Shown here piece by piece: positions 15,159 through 32,319 of a DNA stretch of 41,763 bases. The stretch is taken from assembly GCA_903954055.1 (NCBI GenBank), contig CAJBMC010000097.1, forward strand, positions 1 through 41,763, in the 5' to 3' direction. The notes under the pieces were generated by a model. That model ran no database searches, was not told the origin of the DNA, and saw only the letters and a program-made list of their open reading frames with translations. Positions within the stretch are counted from its first letter, which is position 1. The number at the start of each line of letters is the position of its first letter. This DNA is from an uncultured Actinomycetes bacterium. Its GTDB lineage: Bacteria > Actinomycetota > Actinomycetes > Nanopelagicales > Nanopelagicaceae. The translations under genes and the position numbers were made by a program.

Positions 15159-15524
15159 ATGGAAAATCGCAGCTCTGGAATCGTTGTCTTAACCGATGGG
15201 CAGTGCCGCTTCTGTGAGGCAACGCTTGCTTGGGTGCAGAAGAAATTAGTTGTCGATGCGATTGCCTTTCAAGAGGCAGATCTTGAGCAATACGGGTTGA
15301 GCTATGAAGCATGTTCGCAGGCGCTACATGTAGTCAATGCAGGCAAGGTTTATGTGGGTTCAGATGCAATTGCTTACTTGCTTGGCCGTCGCGGAAATTA
15401 CGTGCTCGGCTTTATCGTGCGCGCATCAGGACCATTGGGTCGCTCTGGTTACAAGTGGGTAGCCGGCCATCGCAATACATGGGTTATTAAGCTAGCTACG
15501 CGCCTTATTGAACGCTCGCTTTAA
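15159..15524 (+). CDS. DCC (DUF393) family thiol-disulfide oxidoreductase-like protein
   Basis: VLTDGQCRFCEATLAWVQK signature. Confidence 0.85.
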   Translation: MENRSSGIVVLTDGQCRFCEATLAWVQKKLVVDAIAFQEADLEQYGLSYEACSQALHVVNAGKVYVGSDAIAYLLGRRGNYVLGFIVRASGPLGRSGYKWVAGHRNTWVIKLATRLIERSL

Positions 15525-15529
15525 AGTAG

Positions 15530-16174
15530 TTAGCGAACTGAGCGAAGTACCGCAGTGACCTTGCCGAGGATCTCGCAGTGAGTTCCATCGATAGGTTCGA
15601 AGGCATCATTGGCTGGCAACAACCAGACTTTGCCGTTCTTCTTTGAAAAAGTTTTTACTGTTGCTTCGCCATCGATCATCGCCGCAACTACATCGCCATT
15701 GTTCGCATCCTTCTGCTGACGGATAACAACGAAGTCACCATCGCAGATAGCTGCATCAATCATGGACTCGCCCTTGACCTTCAACATAAAGAGATCACCA
15801 GAACCCACAAGTGATTCAGGAAGCGGCATCGTCTCTTCGATCATCTGATCTGCTGTGATAGGAACACCCGCTGCAATAGATCCAACCAGTGGAATAAATC
15901 GAGTCTTATCGACCGGGGTAGTGATGCCGAGTTCTGAGTCAGGGACAACGACCTCGAGGGCGCGGCCGGAGTTATCGCCGCGGCGGATGAGGCCCTTATC
16001 TTCGAGGATATCGAGCTGATATTTGACCGATGCCGAAGAGGTCAGGCCGACAGCGGCGCCAATCTCTCGCATGGTGGGGGCGTAGCCCTGGGAGTCGACG
16101 GAAGATTTGATGAAGTCGAGGATCTCGACCTGGCGGCCGGTGAGCTCGCCATCTGGGGATATCTTTTTGGCCAT
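15530..16174 (-). CDS. lexA: LexA repressor
   Basis: LTGRQVEILDFIKSS...GYAPTMREIGAAVGL HTH, cleavage-site region SIAAGVPI, FMLKVKGESMIDAAICDGDFVVI; start trimmed to MAKKISPDGE. Confidence 0.96.
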   Translation of the reverse strand: MAKKISPDGELTGRQVEILDFIKSSVDSQGYAPTMREIGAAVGLTSSASVKYQLDILEDKGLIRRGDNSGRALEVVVPDSELGITTPVDKTRFIPLVGSIAAGVPITADQMIEETMPLPESLVGSGDLFMLKVKGESMIDAAICDGDFVVIRQQKDANNGDVVAAMIDGEATVKTFSKKNGKVWLLPANDAFEPIDGTHCEILGKVTAVLRSVR

Positions 16175-20357: not shown

Positions 20358-20400
20358 CAAGAACCCCGTCTGAAATTCAGGCGGGGTTCTTGCTTTACTT
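20358..20400 (+). terminator. Intrinsic terminator after nrdJ
   Basis: CAAGAACCCCG ... CGGGGTTCTTG 11 bp stem followed by CTTTACTT. Confidence 0.85.
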
Positions 20401-20734
20401 AAAGTAGTTCTAGAAATTTAGAGAATTAAATTGAAAGTTCTCTCCTTGCGAGAGTACCTTTAGAAATGAAAGAACCGCTACTGAATTTGATTTTCATCAA
20501 TTCCAGCAGCGGCTCAATCACTCCCTGGGTTAGGAAGTATCTGAACGCCCGTCGTTTGCGCGACGGGCGTTCCTAATTTCTATTGCTAGAAGAATTAGTT
20601 TGCCTATCGTAGAAACGAGCGAGAGCCATTGAATTACTTTCATAACTCCTCCCTTCTCTACTCTGCGACGGATGTCTCAGAGAGATTCGGGTTTCACTTG
20701 AGTGACGGATCCGGATCGAGAAGGAAGTGGGAGC
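20397..20734 (+). repeat. Structured intergenic repeat element, copy A (candidate ncRNA or non-autonomous element)
   Basis: Collinear with 25710-26043; shares ACTTAAAGTAGTTCT at its 5' edge and a 40 bp identical core (20674-20713); multiple hairpins. Confidence 0.85.
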
Positions 20735-20842
20735 TGGCGAAAGGTAAATTAAGGCGCAGCCCGGATGCGGACGAATGTCGGTGCCTGTGGAGGAATCCGC
20801 TCGATTCATAAGAAAGGGCGGATGGGCTATATTTAGCGCATT

Positions 20843-25709: not shown

Positions 25710-26043
25710 ACTTAAAGTAGTTCTCATTCCAAGTAATTTTCTATATGTTTCTAGAGCAAGGCAGGTGTAATCTTTCGAATGAAAGAACCGCTAGCGAAAT
25801 TGATTCGCATCAACTCCACTAGCGGCTCAATCGCTTCCGGTGGATCAGAAGCTTGATTAACGTCCGTTGCTTTCGCGGCGGGCGTTTCTCATTTCTAATG
25901 CTAGAAGGAGCAATTTCCCGAGTGTTGTCACGAGAGAAATCCAATCAAGAATCTTCATCACATCTCCCTTCTCTACTCTGAGACGAGCGTCTCAGAGAGA
26001 TTCGGGTTTCACTTGAGTGACGGATCCGAATGAAGTAGGGAGC
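25710..26043 (+). repeat. Structured intergenic repeat element, copy B
   Basis: Collinear with 20397-20734; begins 3 bp after the permease stop codon; 40 bp identical core at 25989-26028. Confidence 0.85.
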
Positions 26044-26110
26044 GGAAGCATGGGAAACTTAGAGTTAATTGGCGGCTTCGAAAGATGCAGTTGGTGTAGC
26101 TGTGGATGAC

Positions 26111-31386: not shown

Positions 31387-32319
31387 ATGCAGGTAAAAAG
31401 CCACAAAGTAGTTGCTATTGCAGCTGCAATTGCTCTCGCAGTTGTCGGAACAGTCGCAACTTCAACATCAGCTAACGCAGCTGGAACTTCCCTCAAGGGA
31501 GTTAAGGTCATTGTTGGATCGAAGGACTTCACAGAGTCAATCGTTCTCTCAAAGATTGTTAAGCAGTTCATCATCGCTAACGGTGGAACTGTTGTTGATA
31601 AGACAAACATCAAGGGTTCTTCAACAACTCGTGAAGCAATGGTCAGCGGAGATATCAACTTGTACTGGGAATACACAGGTACAGCATGGTTGGTATACCA
31701 GAAGCAGACTGATGTAAATATTGCTCCAAACGTTCTTTACACAAAGGTTGCTGCTGGCGACAAGATGAACAAGGTCACATGGGGACCAATGACATCATTT
31801 AACGATACATATGCATGGGCAATCACAAAGGCAAATGCAGCTAAGTACGGCATCAAGACATACTCAGATCTCGCTAAGAAGCTCCCTGCAGGTTCTGCAT
31901 GGTGCGTTGAGTCAGAGTTCCAGAGCCGTCCGGATGGATGGGCAGGCTTCAAGAAGGCTTACTCAATCTCAGATTCAAATATCACAACTAAGGTCCTTGA
32001 TACTGGCGCTATCTACCAGGCAACAAAGGATGGACAGTGCGTGGTTGGTGAAGTATTCGCAACAGATGGTCGCATCGGAGCTCTTGGCTTGATGGTTCCA
32101 GCTGAAGATATTTCATACTTCCCTCCATACAACGCTGCAATCACAATGACTGATGCAACTGCAAAGAAGTACCCACAGCTCGTAAAGGCTTTGGCTCCAA
32201 TTGCAGCAAAGATCAGCAATGCAACAATGCAGAACCTCAACGCTCGCGTTGACGTTCTCGGAGAAGATGCAGACACAGTTGCGAAGAGCTTCTTGTCAGC
32301 ATCAGGATTGGTGAAGTAA
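31387..32319 (+). CDS. Glycine betaine/choline-type substrate-binding protein
   Basis: Signal peptide, GVKVIVGSKDFTESIVLSKIVKQF...YWEYTGTAWLVY, OpuAC/OpuBC-type. Confidence 0.93.
   Translation: MQVKSHKVVAIAAAIALAVVGTVATSTSANAAGTSLKGVKVIVGSKDFTESIVLSKIVKQFIIANGGTVVDKTNIKGSSTTREAMVSGDINLYWEYTGTAWLVYQKQTDVNIAPNVLYTKVAAGDKMNKVTWGPMTSFNDTYAWAITKANAAKYGIKTYSDLAKKLPAGSAWCVESEFQSRPDGWAGFKKAYSISDSNITTKVLDTGAIYQATKDGQCVVGEVFATDGRIGALGLMVPAEDISYFPPYNAAITMTDATAKKYPQLVKALAPIAAKISNATMQNLNARVDVLGEDADTVAKSFLSASGLVK

Follow-up and report, generated by a model that had tools for sequence, protein, structure and literature searches.

A repeated small-gene element in freshwater Actinobacteria: a candidate type I toxin-antitoxin module with a three-way-junction leader

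The locus considered here raises the question of what is encoded by a structured stretch of about 335 bp that recurs in the genome of an uncultured member of the Nanopelagicaceae. The window, i.e., the whole 41,763-nucleotide stretch that was analyzed (contig CAJBMC010000097.1), belongs to a 1.39-Mb draft genome and bears two collinear copies of the element: copy A (20397-20734) is flanked by nrdJ and by the FMN riboswitch of the riboflavin operon, and copy B (25710-26043) follows a permease-like gene. A sequence-only reading of the window had reported these copies and a core identical at 58 of 62 positions with a 40-nt identical run; we recovered the former and measured exactly the same values for the latter. 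The repeat finder aligned the copies at 77% identity over 199 nt and at 84% over 61 nt, and within-genome BLAST paired them with E = 9e-54 and found no third copy in the same genome. The hairpins CTCTG/CAGAG, GATTCGG/CCGGATC, AACGCCCGTCG/CGACGGGCGTT and CCGCT/AGCGG listed in that reading are present in both copies, and equivalent hairpins of diverged sequence were found in relatives. Its proposal of a structured RNA is supported by a covariation score above that of every shuffle (see below). The element is also new to Rfam, as had been suspected: scans at gathering and relaxed thresholds returned nothing credible for it, the relaxed matches being far below curated scores, and the only Rfam matches in the window are the FMN riboswitch and two tRNAs. 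In a related genome, an Rfam msiK RNA was observed upstream of an ABC transporter ATPase (L011:130-189).

The same reading took the element to be non-coding, which did not hold, as it overlooked a homologous small ORF with a Shine-Dalgarno (SD) sequence on the minus strand of both copies. In each, GGGAG(GAG) is followed by an ATG and a homologous peptide: the copy A ORF (20643-20530) encodes the 37-aa MKVIQWLSLVSTIGKLILLAIEIRNARRANDGRSDTS downstream of the SD GAAGGGAGGAG (20646-20656), which is kept in nearly all relatives, and the copy B ORF (25958-25857) encodes the 33-aa MKILDWISLVTTLGKLLLLALEMRNARRESNGR downstream of an SD at 25964-25971. The two ORFs differ at 10, 2 and 16 first, second and third codon positions, respectively, with dN 0.207, dS 1.32 and dN/dS 0.16, a pattern indicating that the peptide is under purifying selection. 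In nearly all relatives, a TANNNT hexamer at a comparable distance corresponds to a putative -10 of the small gene (TACCTT, 20741-20746, minus strand).

Homologues of the peptide were found across several genera, and the peptides of relatives are 27-39 aa long (33-37 aa in the window). The peptides have in common a hydrophobic stretch at the N-terminus and the motif E-(I/M)-R-x-A-R-R, and their hydropathy maxima range from 1.2 to 2.5, mostly about 1.6 or more; the copy A peptide has one predicted membrane helix and a basic C-terminus. These are small (<60 aa) hydrophobic peptides, as are the toxins of type I toxin-antitoxin systems, in which basic C-termini are common (PMC8309996). No Pfam or NCBIfam model, including those of the known type I toxin families, matched at cut-off or with a meaningful E-value, and PADLOC left the element unmatched. 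In the leaders of loci L030 and L035-L043, the best-spaced ATG downstream of the SD begins a frame of 2-5 codons overlapping the toxin start, possibly a coupling uORF.

The conserved core is the 5' leader of this small gene, and the main transcript would therefore run on the minus strand. The leaders of copy A (20644-20734) and copy B (25959-26049) are predicted to fold as a three-way junction, in which an outer helix pairs the SD and two hairpins emerge from the junction: P2 (20685-20718; GATTCGG/CCGGATC of the sequence-only reading), with a conserved loop motif, and P3 (20661-20682; CTCTGnGAC/GTCTCAGAG), next to the SD. The P2 loop motif is TCCGTCACT in the subfamily of the window and GCCGCCAGCG in another. 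In an alignment of ten leaders from one subfamily, 93.4% of the pair cells are formed and 8 pairs are doubly changed, and none of 500 shuffles reaches either the observed covariation score or the number of paired cells. Thirteen leaders from the subfamilies of the window gave 93.1% formed cells and 22 doubly changed cells, likewise matched by none of 500 shuffles; the count of pairs with a double change is unexceptional in this set (102 of 500 shuffles). Such double-change counts are inflated by relatedness, and sliding the partners abolishes the signal in both alignments. A combined structure alignment (A6) was left out of the counts because it included opposite-strand matches.

A covariance model built from the first leader subfamily alone scores up to 25 bits in the second and matches the leaders of the window weakly, at 19.3 bits for copy B (E 0.009) and 14.3 bits for copy A. 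It detects further leaders in the genera g13 and g16, each of which precedes an SD and a different hydrophobic peptide of 27-31 aa. Save for one chance match, its matches always precede a small hydrophobic ORF, and in a class-wide sample they are confined to this family. The weakest point of the case is the covering of the SD by the outer helix, of which the modeled folds and the alignments suggest it is capable: the mean SD pairing, at 0.82, is modestly higher than the 0.74 of shuffled leaders; for many leaders the excess lacks individual significance, and several fail to surpass their own shuffles. Long-distance 5'-3' pairing of the toxin mRNA, as in hok and AapA, is unsupported overall (cognate versus non-cognate p = 0.06), although striking by eye in some copies (GCUCCC/GGGAGU, CCUGCCC/GGGUAGG).

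The plus-strand transcript proposed earlier fares differently in its parts: an antisense RNA about 120 nt long still appears likely, but a transcript of the whole element does not. The end of the element is marked on the plus strand by the box ACnnAAAGTAGTT, which holds a constant position in copies from several genera. In copy A, the box ACTTAAAGTAGTT (20397-20409) lies upstream of a predicted antisense promoter TTGAAA-N18-TACCTT (20431-20460), and in copy B the box at 25710-25722 precedes a predicted -10 TAATCT (25768-25773). A TANNNT-type hexamer begins 57-58 nt past the box in essentially all of 24 aligned copies (three placed by eye), the intervening sequence differing between groups and the arrangement itself differing in subfamilies 2 and 3. 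From this fixed geometry, a convergent antisense RNA is predicted to start near 20467 in copy A and near 25780 in copy B and to overlap the gene in its 3' half; with approximate ends, and judging also from its fold, this putative antitoxin would span 20467-20600 and 25780-25915, respectively. The window contains four occurrences of the sequence AAAGTAGTT, where 0.23 would be expected; two further exact boxes on the plus strand, at 15523-15531 (between convergent ORFs) and 31405-31413, adjoin no recognized small-gene copy.

Two hairpins bear on the transcript ends. The CCGCT..AGCGG hairpin (20475-20512), seen in the repeat comparison and the fold, would be the 5' hairpin of the antisense RNA and is likely the terminator of the toxin mRNA. 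Hairpin P4 (20543-20572), in the last codons of the ORF, may mark the 3' end of the antisense RNA. P4 occupies about nt 70-102, counted from the ATG, in most relatives, with differing sequence and codons, while the ORF may end anywhere between nt 84 and nt 120; a few copies have their best-scoring stem elsewhere. As its place is near-constant despite this variation, codons alone do not explain P4. The plus-strand terminator, for which P4 is the likely candidate, lacks a clean U-tract in several copies.

A profile of the small peptide detects relatives, some of them partial, in 47 of 296 family genomes (E <= 0.001), at one to four copies per genome. Among the matches listed, the named carriers of the same leader are lake and reservoir Actinomycetota MAGs, which together with the genome size points to a freshwater actinobacterium as the host of the window; a pattern scan of genome contigs listed mostly GC-rich chance matches and a few true carriers, and tblastn against phages and plasmids and a search of viral contigs yielded no real relatives. 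Resemblance to integron attC sites was considered and rejected, as the order of the core sites does not fit. The neighboring genes often differ between relatives, with no fixed partner gene. The nrdJ/FMN-riboswitch site is empty in some species, with 103-127 nt from the stop codon to the riboswitch as opposed to 511-551 nt where the element is present. Since empty sites exist and the neighbors vary elsewhere, a role in the control of riboflavin synthesis or ribonucleotide reductase is unlikely.

A genus survey recovered antisense-only loci alongside intact ones. These solitary units of about 165 bp extend from roughly toxin codon 14 to the box side; five of them have breakpoints at codons 13-15, with 86-93% identity to intact loci, and two further leader-less loci retain more of the ORF. 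An apparent case in genome G079 was excluded as it touches a contig end. No leader-only remnants were seen with the covariance model, which detects mainly one leader subfamily. Reading the truncated copies as attachment sites was rejected because the leader and toxin start are always lost and a near-constant 165-bp unit is retained. Loci that drop the toxin end but keep the antisense end would be expected if the antisense RNA were a useful gene in itself; if so, the solitary RNA could serve, for example, against other copies.

Together, we consider that each copy is probably a two-gene type I toxin-antitoxin module. The ORF and the selection on it, the leader covariation, the hairpin positions, the box to -10 spacing, the antisense-only units and the empty sites can be read from the sequences; the transcripts, the toxicity and the antitoxin action are what we infer. 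In this model, a minus-strand mRNA with a leader folding as a three-way junction able to cover the SD would encode a peptide of 27-39 aa that has a single hydrophobic helix and in most cases a basic end, and a convergent plus-strand promoter would produce an antisense RNA of about 120 nt that overlaps the 3' untranslated region together with the final third of the ORF. The analogy with Gram-positive type I loci suggests that the peptide would act as a membrane toxin, silenced by both the closed leader and the antisense RNA, the latter acting via duplex formation, RNase III decay or a block of translation. A major hallmark of type I toxin mRNAs is a primary transcript that is non-translatable and has its SD occluded (PMC6733600), and Gram-positive type I pairs overlap at their 3' ends, by about 120 nt in BsrG/SR4 (PMC4147584).

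The closest parallels are TxpA/RatA and BsrG/SR4 of Bacillus subtilis, which likewise have a small hydrophobic peptide and in which, as predicted for the element, a convergent antisense RNA shares roughly 75-120 nt with the toxin mRNA in its 3' part (PMC4147584). The element differs from them in its phylum, in its putative SD-covering three-way-junction leader and in peptide length (27-39 aa versus 59 aa in TxpA), and no sequence similarity was found with Pfam and NCBIfam. In AapA/IsoA of Helicobacter pylori and in Hok/Sok, the toxin mRNA fold pairs the SD, as predicted for the element, and AapA1 is a membrane peptide whose basic C-terminal residues are needed for activity (PMC6733600, PMC8309996); in the element, by contrast, a local helix of the leader would pair the SD. 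Before a single cyanobacterial candidate, no phyla other than Proteobacteria, Firmicutes and Tenericutes were known to have type I systems (PMC12390103). This candidate, MsoT1/MsoA1 of Microcystis (2025), the first outside these three classical phyla, has an unrelated peptide and has been partly tested by experiment (PMC12390103). In the open-access literature we found no type I systems in Actinobacteria.

Translational riboswitches built on three-way junctions, such as the glutamine riboswitch, also have structured leaders able to hide the SD, although the element has neither an Rfam match at gathering or relaxed thresholds nor a metabolic gene downstream. The resemblance of a three-way junction with a conserved loop motif before the SD to such a riboswitch, or to a thermosensor, together with the purifying selection on the peptide, could suggest a benign small membrane protein, such as a regulator or a membrane-complex subunit, with a riboswitch-like or temperature-controlled leader and an antisense RNA that tunes its level. 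However, a patchy presence in 47 of 296 genomes fits a toxin-antitoxin system better, and the several copies in unrelated places without a fixed partner gene and the toxin-less loci that retain the antisense part also speak against it; we regard a non-toxin role of this kind as unlikely, though the most serious of the alternatives.

Occupied and empty versions of the same site, two to four copies in some genomes and a repeatable 165-bp truncated form are features that a small non-autonomous mobile element of the MITE or REP type might also display, with hairpins serving transposition and the ORF as a passenger. This is improbable in light of the coding selection on the ORF, the lack of any terminal inverted repeats that we noticed and the copy number, which at two here and one to four in relatives falls short of the high numbers of such repeats. 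Least probable is a plus-strand non-coding structured RNA family with an incidental ORF, as the sequence-only reading had it: the hairpins do covary and a plus-strand promoter is likely, but the minus strand has a conserved ORF with an SD, codon-position bias and a dN/dS of 0.16, and the leader model matches, one chance match aside, only loci with a small hydrophobic ORF downstream.

Beyond the toxin-antitoxin assignment itself, it is about an even call whether the element represents a new type I superfamily of freshwater Actinobacteria, with a new SD-covering three-way-junction leader, unrelated-looking peptides and loci that lost the toxin and kept a solitary antitoxin. Streamlined genomes characterize the small-genome freshwater Actinobacteria, which abound in lakes, and a patchy, recurrently kept toxin-antitoxin-like module is thus unexpected in them. 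The antisense-only loci allow a test of antitoxins outliving their toxins. The limited phylum range of type I systems partly reflects the difficulty of finding them (PMC12390103), and the element offers a handle of both sequence and structure for finding them in Actinobacteria.

Some relatives have additional features on the antisense side. In the g16 loci L075-L083, a 3' UTR hairpin (GCTTCGGGAAGAAA) shows strong complementarity to the anti-SD stretch of the leader, and the g16 antisense RNA could thus also mimic the anti-SD. In three loci from group-2 genomes, in the nrdJ-ribD interval (L229, at 1660-1900, L234 and L224), the putative antisense promoter is followed by about 100 nt of extra structured RNA, reading GAACAGATGCGCCTCTG...GGCCGGCAAGTCAG...CCGGCCTCGTT, which has no Rfam match and is possibly a separate small RNA; genome G001 carries it without the toxin.
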